From: a virus
Direction: 5' to 3' (one strand)
Length of the DNA stretch: 24,775 nt
IMG/VR virus record: IMGVR_UViG_3300020444_000008
Location: 1 to 24,775 of that record
Part shown: one piece after another, positions 733 to 24,384 of the stretch
Numbering within the stretch: position 1 is the first letter of the stretch
Layout: every line of letters begins with the position of its first letter
Program-made: the position numbers and the translations under genes
The notes under the pieces: model-generated
What the model saw: the letters and a program-made list of their open reading frames with translations, nothing else
Databases searched by the model: none
Told to the model about the DNA's origin: nothing

Positions 733-1279
733 ACTTTCTGCACTCCCTCGCATAACCCTGCAAATAAACCAGCTTCTCCCTATCCTCGATCATTCCTGCT
801 CGGATATCCCAAACAGCTTGTCCAGCTGCTCCACTGAGTTCGAGGGTGGCGACATCGCCCATGCTGCAGGCGCCGGAGTCGGCAAGGGCTCCGGCGACAC
901 GAGCGTCAGCTCGGGCGACTTTGACTTCGATGCGCAGCCGGCGGCGCTCATTATCAGCATCACTGTAACTGCGACGCAGGCTTTCGTTTTCAGCTTTTGC
1001 ATCTTCCAGCTCCTGGTAGTGCTTCGTGTCGAGCGCCTGCAGGCGTGCTTGCTGGGCAACGTATAGTTCCTGCTGCTGCCGCAGCTGCTGCGCCCCGGCT
1101 CGGGCAATCTCGCCCAGCGTGTCCGAGTGCAGCTTCTCAGCGGCAGCAACGTCAGCTCGACCATTTGCACCACTCCAGCTCCAGCCAGCCCAGAAGCCCG
1201 ACCCGACCAGGCCGATCAGCAGCAAGACGGTGAAGCCAATCTGCGCTGCCAGCTTGTACTTGCCAGGTAAGCCCATCAT
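731..1279 (-). CDS. Rz: Rz-like inner-membrane spanin (i-spanin)
   Basis: This protein of about 182 residues has one N-terminal membrane segment (about residues 11-33) followed by a long charged helical region, rich in Q, E, R and A, that should form a periplasmic coiled coil. This is the i-spanin design: together with an outer-membrane lipoprotein it fuses inner and outer membranes at the end of lysis. The start at 1279 overlaps the endolysin stop as ATGA; a longer reading to 1348 lies inside the endolysin gene and is not needed. The partner Rz1 is encoded inside this gene in another frame (1002-790). The late part carries AGACSMGDVATLEL-like sequence and ends in CRK. The call rests on architecture, neighbours and the nested Rz1 rather than on a strong sequence motif. 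Confidence 0.87.
   Translation of the reverse strand: MMGLPGKYKLAAQIGFTVLLLIGLVGSGFWAGWSWSGANGRADVAAAEKLHSDTLGEIARAGAQQLRQQQELYVAQQARLQALDTKHYQELEDAKAENESLRRSYSDADNERRRLRIEVKVARADARVAGALADSGACSMGDVATLELSGAAGQAVWDIRAGMIEDREKLVYLQGYARECRK
790..1002 (-). CDS. Rz1: Rz1-like outer-membrane spanin lipoprotein, nested in Rz
   Basis: This 70-residue lipoprotein is encoded completely within Rz in a different frame. The start at 1002 is chosen because AGGAG stands 7 bases upstream of the ATG. A charged start (MQKLKTK) leads into a hydrophobic stretch and a lipobox-like SAAGC, so Cys23 is the expected lipidated residue. The mature part is about 48 residues and has the proline-rich tract EPLPTPAPA typical of Rz1 proteins. 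In the family, Rz1 is anchored in the outer membrane and binds the C-terminus of Rz across the periplasm. Automatic gene callers often miss it because it lies wholly inside another gene, and a longer reading of the frame to 1173 hides the true start. Confidence 0.88.
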   Translation of the reverse strand: MQKLKTKACVAVTVMLIMSAAGCASKSKSPELTLVSPEPLPTPAPAAWAMSPPSNSVEQLDKLFGISEQE

Positions 1280-9343: not shown

Positions 9344-9781
9344 TCACGTTTCAGGGTCTGGTTCAGGCTCTGGCGGCGCGGCCACGGTTATCAGCCGTAA
9401 CGTCAGCTCATACACGGTGTCGGCCATATCCTGCGAGCGGATGACCTGCTTTGCGGCCAAAGGCGAACCGTTCTCGCGGTTCCAGGTCACCCAGTACTGA
9501 TCGCCGCGCGGCAGCACCAGTTGCATCACTGCGCCGGGCTGGTCGCGCAGCGCTTCCAGCGCCCGGACGGTGGCCAGGGTGAACCAGGCCCCGCCGTTGC
9601 TCTGCAGAGTGATGGGGCGGCCATGCAGCTTGACGCCCTCCTGAATCAGCAGCGCGCCGGTGAGGCCGCGCTCCTGGCTTTGGGTGATGGTGTCCCAGTC
9701 AAACTCGTCTACCCATTCCATCTGGTCACCGGCCAGGTCCGGATCAGCTGCCAGATCCACTGCGCCAAGGGTTAATGGCAT
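9344..9781 (-). CDS. Minor tail protein following the tape measure, unknown family
   Basis: This 145-residue protein is encoded directly after the tape measure. The stop of that gene and this ATG overlap (TGATG). A GTG three bases earlier is possible, but AGGAG is better spaced for the ATG. The protein has DQMEWVDEFDWDTITQSQ early, GAWFTLATVRALEALRDQ in the middle, and ends in a proline/glutamate tail (PPEPEPDPE). Proteins of this size in this position often sit at the distal tail or initiate tail assembly, comparable in position to lambda gpM. That comparison is from gene order only. An intrinsic terminator follows the gene. Confidence 0.8.
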   Translation of the reverse strand: MPLTLGAVDLAADPDLAGDQMEWVDEFDWDTITQSQERGLTGALLIQEGVKLHGRPITLQSNGGAWFTLATVRALEALRDQPGAVMQLVLPRGDQYWVTWNRENGSPLAAKQVIRSQDMADTVYELTLRLITVAAPPEPEPDPET

Positions 9782-12700
9782 CACAAACTCCTCAATCCAG
9801 CCTGCTCAAGAATCCCCAGAAGGTCGCCCTCCTGCCCTGCTGGCACGCTGACATCCACAGAGCGGCCCTGCGCAGATTCCAGCCTGATGATCTTGCTGGG
9901 GCTGGGCGCAGCTTCCGGTGCTGCGGCTGCGACGGCGTCACGCCGCTGCTGCCGGGCTTCGGTTTGGCGGGCCAGCTCAGTCTCGGACTGGATAGACCGC
10001 AGCATGCCGAGGGCTTGCCGTAGGTCTGCAACGGCGGCCTGATTGCCCGCCGCCTGCGCCTCGGCAATCTGGGCCTGCAGCTCAGCCTGCCGGCTTTGCA
10101 TACGCCGGCGCTCGATCGCCTCCTCATTGCCGCGCACTTTGTCCAGCTCGTCCCTGATGCTGGCGAGCGTGCCTTTGGCGCTATCGGCTACCGACTCAAA
10201 CTGCTGCCTGACCGACGCCAGTGCGCTATCCAGCTCAGAGAAGTCGCTGGCATCCAGCAGGTCGAGACTGCTCTTTAGCCCCAGCGCTTGCACCTGAAAG
10301 CTCGATAGCGTGATGGCGCCCTTGTCGTAGCTGTCCATCAGCTGCTGCAGTTGGAGCTTCTGCTCCAGAAACTGCTGCTGCAGCTGACGGCTGGCATACA
10401 TGGTTTCGTCTGCCCAGCGAGCGAACGGCCCACGGAACTGATCGTCCAAGTCCGCCTGCAGCCCAGCCAGGCTATCCCGAACGATAGCCAGCGATGCTGC
10501 CGTACCCTCCAGGCTACTGGTGTCCAAATCAACGTCGACACTGCTGATGCCCTTGAGCGAATCGAATGCCTCCAGCGCCTTGTCGCTCAGCTCGGCCAAC
10601 GGCGTTCGCGCTGCAGTCACCACCTCGTCAAAGAAGGTACTGAACGCGTCGCGGAAGACCGCCTGCTGTTCGGCTCGCGCGTCGGCGGCTGCTTGCTCTG
10701 CCGCAGCCTGCTCGGCCAGTGCATCGGTCACGGACTGCAGTTGCTTTTCCAAGTTGGACTGAGCATCTGCCTGCGTGCCGGTGGAGTCGGTCAGCTTATC
10801 CTGCTGTTTCTCCAGATCCTTGATGGCTTTGTTGTACTGATCAACCGTGAGCTTGCCATCCTCATACAGCTTGCTAATGGCGGTGCGCAGCTTGCTGATA
10901 TCTACATCAGTCTTGGCGTTGCTGATGGCCTTCTGAACGCCGGCGAAGTCTTCCAGCTCATCGATCACATCAGAGAGGGACTTGGCGGTTATCTCGGCTT
11001 CGCCCCCTACTTCATCCAGCTTGTCAGCGACGATGCCCAGCCCGGCTGCGTACTCCTGCTGGGTGATAGCCCCGTCTTGATACGCCCGCAGCATGGCCGT
11101 GCGCAGGCCTTGCAGCTGCTCAACCGTAGTGGCAGTATCGATCAGCTTTTGGGCTTCGGCAAAATCGACAATGGCCTGGGTGCCGGCGATGGCGGCATCA
11201 ATGGCCGCGCTCTTCATCACCTGCTGGGCGATGACCATTTCATCAGCCAGCGCCTGATTCATCATGCGCTGCTGATCGGTCTCGCTTTTGACGGCCTGGG
11301 TTACCTCCCGAGCGCCCTGCACCTGATGCCGCGTGGTGACGTCCCACGCGTTGCGGATGCTTTCGCCAGACTGGGCAATCTGGTCGACCAACGCGCCCTG
11401 CAGGTTGGTGATCTCCGCACGGGCACCACTGATGCGCTCCTTCAGCGCGTCCAGCCCAAAGGCATCGGCAATGGCCTGCCCTGCTGCCAGGAACGGATCA
11501 ACCACCGCCTTGGCCAGCGAGATCGCAGCCAGCCCCACCGTCGCAAAGCCCGCCACCAGCCCATGGAACAAAGTGGTAAACGGCGCGATAAACAGCTCAA
11601 CACGCATGCGCGCATCGTCTAGCTTGGCGCCAAAGTCGCCCAGCCAATCCCCGGCTTTGTCAGCCAGGTTGCCAAAGTCCACCTCAGCGACATCAGTAAC
11701 AAACCGCTTGAGCCACTCCGAGGCCTGAATGAACGCATCAGAGAGGGACGCAGCCAGGCGATCAAGGCGTCCATCTTTATCCATCTGATCGATGGCATCT
11801 GCTACGCCCAGCAGCTGCCGCTTGACGTAATCCAGCGCCCCGCTTTTTGCGATTCGATCAAGAAAGTCGCCAGCAACATCGCGCAGGTTACTGACGATGC
11901 CGGTAAGGCGCGTCATGTTTGCAGCAGCAGAACCGTCTGCCGCCGCACCGATCTCTTTGATCAGGTCACTGATTACATCGCGGCCCAGCTTGCCCGCGCT
12001 GCTCAGACTTTGCAGCTGCTCGGTGTTCTTGCCGGTCACCTTCTCTAGCAGATCCCACACCGGCACACCGCGCTCAACCAACTGCAGAATCTCTTCACCC
12101 TGCAGCTTTTGCTTAGCCCAGGCCTGACCGAGCGCCGATGAGATGCCTGTCAGCTTCTCCATCCCGCCGCCCAGCTTCTCAGACTGGTCGGTGATGGCCT
12201 GCAGCGTGCCGTCCATAGGATCAAGGCCAAACGCCTTGAGCAACGTGAACGCTTCAGTTACGTCTTGCAGCTGCAGTGGCGTATCACGGGTGAATTTCTT
12301 GATCCACTCGGTCGCCTGCTCGCCGCCCTCAATGGAGCCCATCAGCGCCGTTAGCTGGGTCTGCATGCCCTCAAACTGATCGCCGGTAGACAGCATCGAA
12401 AGAATGCCATCACGCAAGTACCCCACACCGGCACCCAAACCCTGCAGGGCTTTGTCTACCAGGTAGATACTGACCAGCCATTTGCCGAAGCGGATCGTTG
12501 CATCAGATACGCCAGTGCGCACCCCCTGCACTGTGCGCTGATACTCATCTGCTGAACGGGTGGCGCTGCGCTGCTGCCGCTCAAGATCCCGCAACTCTGT
12601 GGTGTTGTCTTTAAGCGCACGCTTGGCCTCGTCAACATCAGCAGCCAGGCGCCGCTCTTCGTCTGCCAGTTTACTGGTATCCACCCCGGCATCTTTTGCA

Positions 12701-13074
12701 GCTTTCTCAAGCGCTTGGGCTTCAGCGGTAAGCTTGTCAAGCTGACGGGCAGCGCGTGATGCTTCTTTCTCGGTTTCGCGCAGTGATATCTGTAGTCCTT
12801 TACTACCGGCGTTTCTCTCCAGTTCATCGCGCAGCTCTGCAGCACGCTTTTCGGTGCGCTCCAGCGTGCTGCGCACTCGGTCAGCAGCATCACTAGTGGT
12901 ACGAAAAGCCGTTGCCAGGCCTTGGGCTGACTTAGCTTTGTCGAATTCGTCACGCAGCCCCTGGCTTTTGCTTTGCACATCCTCAAGCGCCTTTGAGACC
13001 TTGCGCGCCTCGGGCGACATCTCGTCTTTGCCACGCAGGATGAACTGAATCAGGCGGTCTTTGATGCCAGCCAT
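9781..13074 (-). CDS. Tail tape measure protein
   Basis: This protein of about 1097 residues sets tail length and probably leaves the tail with the DNA. Residues 1 to about 190 are an almost continuous coiled coil rich in K, E, A and R (VRSTLERTEKRAAELRDELE). Residues about 215-420 match the conserved tape-measure N-terminal domain (FEGMQTQLTALMGS, TEAFTLLKAFGLDP, LGQAWAKQKLQGEEILQLVE). A hydrophobic stretch follows near 495-540. The C-terminal half carries repeated helical hairpins (LRTAMLRAYQDGAITQQEY, LRTAISKLYEDGKLTVDQY and a weaker third copy). The start at 13074 has GGAG upstream; the longer reading to 13092 is not needed. By the lambda ratio its tail would be of the order of 160 nm. 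It is coupled to the next gene by a TGATG overlap. Confidence 0.96.
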   Translation of the reverse strand: MAGIKDRLIQFILRGKDEMSPEARKVSKALEDVQSKSQGLRDEFDKAKSAQGLATAFRTTSDAADRVRSTLERTEKRAAELRDELERNAGSKGLQISLRETEKEASRAARQLDKLTAEAQALEKAAKDAGVDTSKLADEERRLAADVDEAKRALKDNTTELRDLERQQRSATRSADEYQRTVQGVRTGVSDATIRFGKWLVSIYLVDKALQGLGAGVGYLRDGILSMLSTGDQFEGMQTQLTALMGSIEGGEQATEWIKKFTRDTPLQLQDVTEAFTLLKAFGLDPMDGTLQAITDQSEKLGGGMEKLTGISSALGQAWAKQKLQGEEILQLVERGVPVWDLLEKVTGKNTEQLQSLSSAGKLGRDVISDLIKEIGAAADGSAAANMTRLTGIVSNLRDVAGDFLDRIAKSGALDYVKRQLLGVADAIDQMDKDGRLDRLAASLSDAFIQASEWLKRFVTDVAEVDFGNLADKAGDWLGDFGAKLDDARMRVELFIAPFTTLFHGLVAGFATVGLAAISLAKAVVDPFLAAGQAIADAFGLDALKERISGARAEITNLQGALVDQIAQSGESIRNAWDVTTRHQVQGAREVTQAVKSETDQQRMMNQALADEMVIAQQVMKSAAIDAAIAGTQAIVDFAEAQKLIDTATTVEQLQGLRTAMLRAYQDGAITQQEYAAGLGIVADKLDEVGGEAEITAKSLSDVIDELEDFAGVQKAISNAKTDVDISKLRTAISKLYEDGKLTVDQYNKAIKDLEKQQDKLTDSTGTQADAQSNLEKQLQSVTDALAEQAAAEQAAADARAEQQAVFRDAFSTFFDEVVTAARTPLAELSDKALEAFDSLKGISSVDVDLDTSSLEGTAASLAIVRDSLAGLQADLDDQFRGPFARWADETMYASRQLQQQFLEQKLQLQQLMDSYDKGAITLSSFQVQALGLKSSLDLLDASDFSELDSALASVRQQFESVADSAKGTLASIRDELDKVRGNEEAIERRRMQSRQAELQAQIAEAQAAGNQAAVADLRQALGMLRSIQSETELARQTEARQQRRDAVAAAAPEAAPSPSKIIRLESAQGRSVDVSVPAGQEGDLLGILEQAGLRSL

Positions 13075-13093
13075 TGGGTTTTCTCCGGGCAAT

Positions 13094-13115
13094 AAAAAAC
13101 CCTGCCGGGGCAGGG
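13094..13115 (-). terminator. Intrinsic terminator between the DUF4124 gene and the tape measure gene
   Basis: On the minus strand CCCTGC and GCAGGG pair (the flanking AAA/TTT extends the stem) and are followed by six T. It ends the DUF4124 gene's transcription unit and stands just before the tape measure ribosome binding site GCCCGGAGAAAA. Confidence 0.8.
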
Positions 13116-13135
13116 TTTGCTAAATCGTCACGTAG

Positions 13136-13810
13136 CTATCTAGCCCGTGAAATACTCACATCACGCAACCTCTCGCCAGAGAAGTCGCACCGAATATCAA
13201 ACTTGGTCTCCACGCCGAAAGCGTTCTCGGCGGTGAAGCTGCTGAGCACCGTGCTCTCGCCATTGGGTCTAGTGTTGAAAGCGAGATCCAAAATCCGCGA
13301 GAAGTCCACCGAGTCACCTCGATAAGCCCGGTCTCGGGCCTCCTGCTCGCAACGACCTATCGCAGCTCGCCTTTCAATCTGAACAGGTACGGCAATACTG
13401 CCCCTGCCGTCGATATCCCGCATGGAAAACCTGACGACCGTGGGAACTTGGCGATCACCACATTGAACGAAGAAAGAGGGGTTCTCAGGTGTACTGTAAT
13501 CCCGCGAAACGCCGGCAGTCTCCGGGGACATGCGCTCACGGCATTGCGCGTGCTCGGTCGCCAGGCGATTAAGCATCCGGGCAACCTTTACCCGGTACTG
13601 CGACTCCATCAAATACAGTTGCTCCGGCCTGATCGGCCCGCCCAGGTCTTCGGCCTGGCCGCCAGCCTCTTGCAGCTCGCCAGCACACGGCTTGTCGGTA
13701 AAAACCGCTCGACCGTTCTGGTCTTTGCATTGATAAACCTGCGCATACCCCGGCGCGTGCAGCGCCAATGCAGCCAATCCAGCAACAACGCATCCCATCC
13801 TTGCAGACAT
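13136..13810 (-). CDS. Exported DUF4124-type protein, probable moron gene
   Basis: This 224-residue protein starts at 13810, with AGGAGG seven bases before the ATG. Residues 1-23 form a signal peptide (VVAGLAALALHAPGYA), with cleavage expected before QVYQC. Residues about 24-45 match the DUF4124 domain: VYQCKDQNGRAVFTDKPC, with paired Cys28 and Cys42. The rest is R/E/D-rich and has four further cysteines, giving an even number as expected for a disulfide-containing periplasmic protein. DUF4124 proteins are common exported proteins of gammaproteobacteria and have no known role in virions. The gene sits between tail tube and tape measure, has a hairpin over its ribosome binding site and a terminator after it. 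This fits a cargo gene added to the late operon. Its effect on the host is unknown. Confidence 0.85.
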   Translation of the reverse strand: MSARMGCVVAGLAALALHAPGYAQVYQCKDQNGRAVFTDKPCAGELQEAGGQAEDLGGPIRPEQLYLMESQYRVKVARMLNRLATEHAQCRERMSPETAGVSRDYSTPENPSFFVQCGDRQVPTVVRFSMRDIDGRGSIAVPVQIERRAAIGRCEQEARDRAYRGDSVDFSRILDLAFNTRPNGESTVLSSFTAENAFGVETKFDIRCDFSGERLRDVSISRAR

Positions 13811-13841
13811 AAGGCGCCCTCCTTTTGACAGAGGGCACCTT
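13811..13841 (-). promoter_or_regulatory. Hairpin abutting and partly covering the SD of the DUF4124 gene
   Basis: Two 11-base arms (13811-13821 and 13831-13841) are complementary with a single G-U pair and a 9-base loop. The stem ends exactly next to the ATG at 13810, and half of the AGGAGG sequence lies inside it. There is no T-run after it, so it looks like a translation-limiting RNA structure rather than a terminator. A weak promoter-like TTGATG and TAAGGT pair (15-base spacing) lies just upstream. Confidence 0.55.
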
Positions 13842-13859
13842 AGCACATCGGTCACCGCA

Positions 13860-14603
13860 TCAAGCCGCCATATCCATCTGGCAGAACTTGCTGATGCCGG
13901 TACCGGTGATGCGGTCGTCCGCCAGCGCTTCACCGGGCACCTCCAGCTTCAGGTACTCCTGACCGAAGGCTTGCAGCTGGCTGACCAAGCCCAGCTTCAC
14001 GCGATGCACACGCAAGCTGTAGGGCTCGCCCGACTGGGCGTCGTTCAGACCGGCAATGTAAATCTCCAGCTCGACCGCAGGCGCCGTCAGCATCTGAATG
14101 ACGCTTGCACCGCGCGGAGTGTAGCTGGCTTTGACGCCGGCGCTGGTGATGTTGGTAGTGCTCAGCACGATGATGCCGTGTGGGTTGAGAAGGTAATCGG
14201 TACCCGCAACCAGCGCAGTGTCTGACGCTGTTTTCAGCACCGGCGCGACCGACAGGTCCGGCAGGTGGTTGAACGGAATCAGCTCACCCAAAACACCGCC
14301 ACAGGCCAGGGCTTCATCAACGATGGGGGTAACGTCCACCTCAGTCACCGTTGAGCGAGTTGCCCAGGCGACGTTCTTTGGCGTCAGGTCAAACAGGCCG
14401 ATGGTGGTGTTCACATCCGTTACGCGGTCGCGGACGTTGCGGTTACCACCACCGCCGCGGTAGTTCGGCAGGGCAATGCGGTTGGTTTGGTAAGAGATGT
14501 TGAAGACATCGCAGTTGCCGATATCCACCAGTGCATCTTGGCTCTGATAGGCGCGGGCGTAAGCGATGCCCTCACCGATAAACGAACGGTCTACTTGTGC
14601 CAT
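13860..14603 (-). CDS. Major tail tube protein
   Basis: This 247-residue protein is close in length to lambda gpV (246) and is located between the terminator-type proteins and the tape measure. It begins MAQVDRSFIGEGIAYARAYQ and contains VFNISYQTNRIALPNYRGGGGNRN and VRDRVTDVNTTIGLFDLTPKNVAWATR, a strongly beta-type pattern for a tube-forming protein. The glycine-rich loop near residue 50 could be the flexible inter-ring loop of tail tubes. The C-terminal half (VELEIYIAGLNDAQSGEPYSLRVHRVKLG) is also beta-rich. GAGGG precedes the ATG at normal spacing. I assign the role from size, order and pattern; the call as tail tube is strong. Confidence 0.88.
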   Translation of the reverse strand: MAQVDRSFIGEGIAYARAYQSQDALVDIGNCDVFNISYQTNRIALPNYRGGGGNRNVRDRVTDVNTTIGLFDLTPKNVAWATRSTVTEVDVTPIVDEALACGGVLGELIPFNHLPDLSVAPVLKTASDTALVAGTDYLLNPHGIIVLSTTNITSAGVKASYTPRGASVIQMLTAPAVELEIYIAGLNDAQSGEPYSLRVHRVKLGLVSQLQAFGQEYLKLEVPGEALADDRITGTGISKFCQMDMAA

Positions 14604-23731: not shown

Positions 23732-24025
23732 TCACCCCTCAGCCCTGCGCAGCACCGCTGCCACGTTCCCGCGTGAACGCCACACCATCACCGCGAGGAT
23801 GACGAACACGATCAACAGGAACGGGCTCACCGGCTCCACCGAGCGACCCGTAAGCGGTGCAAGAGCCACAGTCAGTGAATATCCGCCAGTGCCAACGGCC
23901 AGCAGGTATGCGCATACACTCATGCCAAAACGGTAGCGCGCACCCTGACGGCGAAACGTGGCAACGCGCCAACAGATGGCGCTGCACAACATGGCTGCGA
24001 TCAGGGTGGACAGGTCGATCATCAT
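23732..24025 (-). CDS. Small membrane protein, putative 3-TM holin-like
   Basis: This 97-residue protein has three hydrophobic segments at about residues 5-20 (LSTLIAAMLCSAICW), 34-56 (GMSVCAYLLAVGTGGYSL) and 67-84 (VSPFLLIVFVILAVMVW), joined by basic loops (RVATFRRQGARYRFG). This is the pattern of the putative 3TM holin family found in Pseudomonas-type phages. The start overlaps the stop of the upstream holin-like gene (ATGA). It may be a second holin or an antiholin. Function is inferred from topology and neighbours. Confidence 0.75.
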   Translation of the reverse strand: MMIDLSTLIAAMLCSAICWRVATFRRQGARYRFGMSVCAYLLAVGTGGYSLTVALAPLTGRSVEPVSPFLLIVFVILAVMVWRSRGNVAAVLRRAEG

Positions 24026-24384
24026 TTCTTACCGATGCCAGGGATAATGGATAGCCAGCCGGGCGCATTCCCTGTCTGCACAAACTCCATGATGCTCACG
24101 CAGAACGCTACGATGAACAGCCCGCCCAGCAAGGCCGGCAACGCCGAGGTAGTAGCCCACTCACGGGCCACAACCTCGGCAGCAAAGAAATATCCGCCAA
24201 TCCATGAGAACAGGAAGTTGGCAGCGCGAGCCTTCCAGCTCAGGTCCTTCGACATGACCATGAAGAACAGCGCCCCGGCAAACGCGCCGATCACCGCCTC
24301 AAGGTCGACACCGGGAATCAGGCTGGCAGCAGACACACCAACCAGCCCTGCCGCTGCGATACTCCCGCTGCTGATGTCGGTCAT
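24022..24384 (-). CDS. Holin-like membrane protein
   Basis: This 120-residue protein has hydrophobic segments at about residues 8-24, 28-45, 52-70 and 78-101 (GALFFMVMS, NFLFSWIGGYFFAAEVV, LPALLGGLFIVAFCVSIMEF), with a short basic C-terminus (GIGKK). It resembles phage holins of the multi-helix type, which open the inner membrane for the endolysin at a set time. GGAG stands eight bases before the ATG. It is the first gene after the candidate late promoter and terminator, and forms a coupled pair with the next membrane protein. The endolysin is at the far end of the late operon, so the lysis genes are split. Confidence 0.8.
   Translation of the reverse strand: MTDISSGSIAAAGLVGVSAASLIPGVDLEAVIGAFAGALFFMVMSKDLSWKARAANFLFSWIGGYFFAAEVVAREWATTSALPALLGGLFIVAFCVSIMEFVQTGNAPGWLSIIPGIGKK

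Follow-up and report, generated by a model that had tools for sequence, protein, structure and literature searches.

What is a gene for an exported protein doing between the tail tube gene and the tape measure (TMP) gene of a phage? The window (the whole 24,775-nucleotide stretch of viral DNA analysed here) contains such a gene, directly downstream of the tube gene, and we have asked whether it belongs to the tail, how it may be expressed, and what its product might do. The features on which the argument depends are as follows.

9781–13074, minus strand: tape measure gene (TMP), the downstream flank of the slot (Pfam TMP_3, 3.5e-33)
13097–13118, minus strand: intrinsic terminator at the tube/TMP junction, a feature of the backbone (found in 80/84 loci)
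13136–13810, minus strand: DUF4124 cargo (moron) gene, 224 aa, ATG at 13810 and TAG at 13136–13138 (ORF reading and translation, Pfam DUF4124, dN/dS about 0.06 against the homologue in locus L030)
13145–13639, minus strand: module A, an alpha/beta domain at the C-terminus that includes four conserved cysteines (family alignment, HMM, AlphaFold2 model)
13679–13777, minus strand: DUF4124 match, residues 12–44 (Pfam PF13511, 1.3e-7)
13742–13810, minus strand: predicted signal peptide, residues 1–23, cleavage after GYA (sequence inspection)
13811–13822, minus strand: 3' arm of the hairpin, including the Shine-Dalgarno (SD) sequence GGAGGG at 13817–13822 (SD opening costs)
13830–13841, minus strand: 5' arm of the SD-sequestering hairpin, with the predicted transcription start near 13830 (stem search, folding)
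13837–13845, minus strand: extended −10-like promoter element TGC-TAAGGT (TAnnnT conservation in slot cargo)
13860–14603, minus strand: major tail tube gene, the upstream flank of the slot (phrog_807, 8.3e-55)

An earlier reading of the letters by themselves (the sequence-only reading) had placed the gene between tail tube and tape measure, and had credited its product with a signal peptide, a DUF4124-type pattern and six mature cysteines. The profile matches of the two flanking genes confirm the position, and the description of the protein is also borne out. The N-terminus, MSARMGCVVAGLAALALHAPGYA followed by QVYQC, reads as a signal peptide. The domain search that had been proposed gives a match to DUF4124 at residues 12–44, scoring 32.1 bits, where the curated cut-off is 22. 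Cysteines occur at positions 7, 28, 42, 90, 117, 154 and 208, and six of these are in the mature protein. Like other DUF4124 (PF13511) proteins, it has an N-terminal signal peptide and the motif YxCxDxxGxxxFTDxPC; unlike them, the larger part of it is module A, which lies outside the Pfam and NCBIfam models. The homologue in L030 is 86% identical, with dN 0.086 and dS 1.48, and the gene is therefore real and under purifying selection.

The AlphaFold2 model has a mean pLDDT of 73.6, with residues 147–222 modelled best, and the C-terminal domain is predicted to be alpha/beta. In a Foldseek comparison with viral models the C-terminal half resembles small phage lipoproteins and a zinc-ribbon phage protein, and comparison with the PDB gave nothing below 0.001. 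Searching solved structures by sequence gave nothing convincing. Module A is covered by none of the Pfam, NCBIfam or PADLOC models, and none of the known or candidate defence families in PADLOC matches the protein. It has no lipobox or outer-membrane signal, and from its sequence it looks soluble and periplasmic.

Elsewhere in the window, tandem holin-like genes matching Phage_holin_3_7 and Phage_holin_8 (Pfam) occupy 23732–24384. The endolysin and Rz genes are a long way off, at the opposite end of the window, where an Rz-like spanin is overlapped by a frame with a lipobox-like MSAAGC, probably a nested Rz1 (731–1348 and 790–1173, minus strand).

Related tails were collected by TMP search and tail tube alignment (80 loci), and the slot was surveyed in the 84 loci for which tube and TMP could both be located. 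These two genes are as little as 63 nt and as much as 4.9 kb apart. In 18 loci, almost all belonging to P. aeruginosa-type phages, the slot is empty; where phages of this type have a filled slot, the occupant is a ricin-type lectin, a DUF6694 lipoprotein or something else. In the window the gap is 785 nt, compared with 70–71 nt in 17 relatives, so that the gene is, as expected of a moron, an insertion between two genes that are otherwise adjacent. Within the window's tail-tube cluster, two of the four phages carry the DUF4124 gene and two carry other cargo; the close relatives without it have tail tubes that are 93–94% identical and slots with different contents. The TMP is 98.7–98.8% identical among L004, L010 and L072, in which the slot is empty, holds a lectin and holds a lipoprotein respectively, and 98.7% identical between L026, which has a WYL-like gene and an ISL3 transposase, and L030, which has the DUF4124 gene. 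The gene is absent from L026, L027 and the empty-slot phages, and is thus not the constant companion of its neighbours that a structural gene would be. Because it is swapped or missing beside near-identical TMPs, a required structural role is excluded and the definition of a moron fits. The gene is almost certainly cargo, as the sequence-only reading had proposed, a view supported by its presence and absence in relatives, by its swapping with unrelated envelope-type genes, and by the promoter-like leader described below. Cargo of the window type is rare among Pseudomonas genomes (only 1 of 399).

The same reading had given the gene a terminator of its own and a hairpin at its start, and here the outcome is divided. 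The terminator is real but stands at the same place before TMP in 17 of the 18 empty slots (80 of 84 loci overall), and is therefore part of the junction and not of the gene. The DUF4124 gene thus has no terminator of its own, and the terminator was rejected as a component of the moron. Its likely effect is to reduce read-through into the TMP gene from the tube message, which is abundant. The hairpin is equally real: it sequesters the SD sequence, is overlapped by the −10 box, and is common to unrelated cargo.

The contents of the slot are varied. In L026 and L027, whose tails are the closest to that of the window, the DUF4124 gene is replaced by an ISL3-type transposase together with a WYL-like gene (L026:6790–9676) or a SocA/Panacea antitoxin-like gene (L027:6925–9616). 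The slots of L009, L036, L046, L057 and L066 contain genes for Arc-like repressors or for AntA or Rha antirepressors, reminiscent of an immunity-I region. L010 (1942–2382), its relatives and many P. aeruginosa phages have a ricin-type lectin of 146 aa, which has no signal peptide and a different leader. No tail assembly chaperone gene was seen between tube and TMP in this tail type (13074–13860 in the window); a candidate for one does occur between these two genes in other phages that share the cargo leader. Judged from the loci compared, the tube/TMP junction is a hotspot that holds swappable envelope-type proteins and regulators.

Many of these proteins are related through their parts. Module A, the C-terminal stretch of about 165 residues, recurs in slot proteins of L009, L030, L037, L040, L058, L068 and L069, preceded either by DUF4124 or by a zinc ribbon and membrane helix. 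Remoter forms occur in Bcep176, in a Helicobacter prophage and in Pasteurella phage Pmp12, where the gene is again just before TMP. In other slot proteins the same anchors are joined to DUF2939, bPH_2, or a part that by eye was labelled SmpA-like or Ig-like. PDC-S55, a candidate defence family in PADLOC, is matched at 5e-48 to 2e-55 by three other slot proteins, each with a zinc ribbon, a membrane helix and DUF2939 (L028:6809–7567, L039:7105–7821 and L043:7523–8221). The comparison therefore supports a description of the slot cargo as modular envelope-type proteins, in which anchor modules are combined with exchangeable C-terminal domains.

How would such genes be expressed? Unrelated cargo genes have a common 5' leader, consisting of an extended −10-like box, nGnTAnnnT, followed by a hairpin with the SD sequence as its 3' arm. 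In a set of non-lectin slot cargo chosen by gene position only, TAnnnT is found 18–29 nt upstream of the SD sequence in 28 of 28 genes, and in 0 of 30 cases in the next upstream control window. The box is present in 26 of 26 cargo genes, compared with 2 of 110 other genes with a good SD sequence, 1 of 35 TMP starts and 0 of 38 tube starts, and a G occupies position −2 (the extended −10 position) in 25 of the 26, although these leader statistics include related genes. The mean cost of opening the SD sequence in the 26 cargo genes is 10.5 kcal/mol in read-through RNA and 4.4 kcal/mol in the short RNA, and in 19 of the 26, compared with 2 of 110 others, the short RNA is cheaper to open by more than 3 kcal/mol. 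For the window gene the corresponding values are 14.6 kcal/mol and, in the predicted short RNA, 1.7 kcal/mol. Two hairpin arms from one gene pair better than arms exchanged among genes (1 in 20,000 permutations, an inexact probability in that the genes are partly related). A simple count gives 91% of arm positions paired, compared with 87.7% in shuffles, for a set that was partly chosen by its hairpins, so that the permutation test is the fairer of the two.

The leader of the window gene matches no Rfam family, a sigma-70 scan called no promoter there, and the cargo leaders share no clear −35 sequence. In L032, L065, L066 and L067 the hairpin is weak or absent and the −10 box is retained. In L042, L043, L055 and L059 a gene on the opposite strand lies between tube and cargo, and for this reason the cargo in these loci needs a promoter of its own. 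We think it probable that the DUF4124 gene has its own promoter and an SD lock, with a predicted start site near 13830.

A strict form of the leader pattern, derived from the same phage group, was searched for in 2.9 million viral contigs, and of the 21 matches 18 are before cargo of this class, some being on contigs also in the slot survey. Several of the phages found differ in their TMP and have a chaperone-like gene in addition, and here too the cargo is directly behind a phrog_807 tail tube gene. In these phages the −10 usually lies 8–20 nt past the stop codon of the tube gene, and in tails with the chaperone-like gene the cargo is placed in front of it. A relaxed pattern gave 130 matches in viral contigs and genomes, most of them before no ORF or a short one, and in whole Pseudomonas genomes it showed no enrichment over the reversed control; the relaxed pattern alone is therefore not diagnostic. 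The same layout of TAnnnT and SD hairpin is seen before small lipoprotein genes at L145:12429, L160:6945, L189:3651 and L147:3622, of which the one in L145 has a tail protein gene on one side and a probable TMP gene on the other.

A leader of this kind is not without precedent. In T4 gene e, I-TevI and segB, and in mobE of Aeh1, the gene's own promoter overlaps the 5' strand of an SD-burying hairpin, so that translation is confined to short transcripts (PMC3014915, PMC2988022); this logic of own promoter and SD hairpin is established for T4 e and I-TevI (PMC3014915, PMC2988022). The window leader is similar by prediction: its hairpin and −10 positions fit the T4 type, and its start site is predicted from the sequence. 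The T4-type leaders use T4 late promoters, whereas the window type has a sigma-70-like extended −10, serves prophage cargo, and places one leader before unrelated genes.

The location of the gene has a precedent in HK97 gp15, a superinfection-exclusion moron placed in the same way just upstream of TMP, with a terminator between, and coding for an envelope protein as the window gene is predicted to do. HK97 gp15 blocks DNA injection, and hybrids carrying a different tail tube and TMP are not excluded (PMC10883804). Its leader (HK97 is L268 in the survey) has a TACGCT box 21 nt before a partly paired SD sequence, whose opening cost goes up from 3.9 to 6.8 kcal/mol because of a hairpin. The two differ in several ways: gp15 has 62 aa and is predicted to be in the inner membrane (PMC10883804), whereas the window protein looks soluble; the gp15 gene is behind chaperone genes; and exclusion by gp15 is a demonstrated phenotype. 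Homology was rejected, since neither BLASTP nor phmmer gave a match, and the resemblance is consequently one of context and not of family. TP-J34 Ltp and Tuc2009 Sie2009 are likewise prophage-encoded envelope proteins that block DNA injection (PMC10883804), as proposed for the window protein; they come from phages of Gram-positive hosts, unlike the window phage, and are likened to it here by context. Exclusion by Ltp is overcome by changes in the tape measure (PMC10883804). SNIPE is another membrane defence that meets the TMP (PMC13190303). In the P. aeruginosa prophage JBD26 the moron Tab lies in the late operon, has a promoter of its own and acts against the tape measure of other phages (PMC10884400); unlike the window gene, it codes for only 83 aa, is located between terminase genes on the opposite strand, and blocks tail assembly instead of DNA entry.

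Taken together, these comparisons suggest the following account. The prophage would carry a moron in the cargo slot directly behind its tail tube gene, and the lysogen would make the protein from the moron's own promoter. RNA started from the predicted −10 would begin within or just after the 5' arm of the hairpin, and without that arm would be translatable, whereas read-through RNA from the late tail operon would keep the whole hairpin and be translated poorly. Once exported, the protein would be in the periplasm, and there its C-terminal domain, rich in cysteines, would most likely hinder DNA entry by superinfecting siphophages. It may do so by acting on the tail tip, or on the tape measure during its passage through the periplasm, in the way proposed for HK97 gp15 and TP-J34 Ltp. 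The parts of this account are not equally firm. Swapping, modular proteins and the shared leader can be read from the sequences compared. The anti-phage role, which the sequence-only reading had already raised, is what we infer from the better precedents HK97 gp15, TP-J34 Ltp and P22 SieA, and exclusion at DNA entry is our best suggestion for the function, offered tentatively and with slightly less than even confidence. For the whole account, of a swapped moron expressed by its own promoter and SD lock and acting in exclusion at DNA entry, we regard the balance as even. Some occupants of the slot are not envelope proteins, namely the lectin without a signal peptide and the Arc, AntA and Rha regulators. 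The sequence-only reading had also offered a role in lysis, and nothing was found to support it.

The main competitor is a moron regulated in the same way whose product helps the lysogen otherwise, in envelope stress, adhesion, or periplasmic handling of redox or metals. DUF4124, DUF2939 and bPH_2 are bacterial domains with unknown or envelope roles, and a lectin and a lipase-like lipoprotein among the occupants suggest diverse functions. Fast swapping and the neighbourhood of the TMP point instead to conflict between phages, as do the defence-candidate family PDC-S55 in the same slot, and the antitoxin-like gene of L027 together with the precedents; we therefore consider a different benefit possible but rather unlikely. 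The exported protein might alternatively stop adsorption at the cell surface. Some lysogenic conversion proteins, those of the Cor type, are known to act in this way. Cor-like proteins are summarised in PMC10883804. The window protein has neither lipobox nor outer-membrane signal, and the inner-membrane zinc-ribbon forms with a matching C-terminal domain are poorly placed to mask a receptor, which makes this improbable, and a little more so than the doubt about the leader considered next.

The TAnnnT box may not be a promoter, and the hairpin alone may matter, either keeping translation low or answering a host factor. This would agree with the lack of a −35 and with the silent sigma-70 scan. 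It is nevertheless unlikely, given that four loci retain the box where the hairpin is weak or lost, that the G at the extended −10 position is nearly invariant, and that cargo behind opposite-strand genes needs a promoter. Least probable by a wide margin is a tail or assembly gene of this phage group, such as a chaperone or virion-associated protein. Many siphophages do encode assembly chaperones between tube and TMP, but the window protein has a signal peptide, the slot stands empty in phages whose TMPs are otherwise near-identical, and chaperone-bearing tails have cargo in front of the chaperone-like gene. The reading as a structural gene was rejected, the gene being absent or replaced beside near-identical TMPs.

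On balance we lean, by a small margin, towards a wider proposal: that the leader cassette, an extended −10 over an SD-locking hairpin, marks mobile, modular envelope-protein morons that dock directly behind the tube gene in several siphophage tail types that are unlike one another, giving expression in the lysogen and silence on read-through from the tail operon, and so would provide a sequence handle for new superinfection-exclusion genes. Such genes have usually been found singly, by phenotype. The shared leader and the fixed address, behind the tail tube and before the TMP, point to dozens of candidate envelope genes, most of them without a named function. The leader would also explain how a gene can lie inside a late operon without bulk production of its protein during lysis, and it gives DUF4124, the uncharacterised C-terminal domain, and the DUF2939 and bPH_2 fusions a phage context that can be tested.
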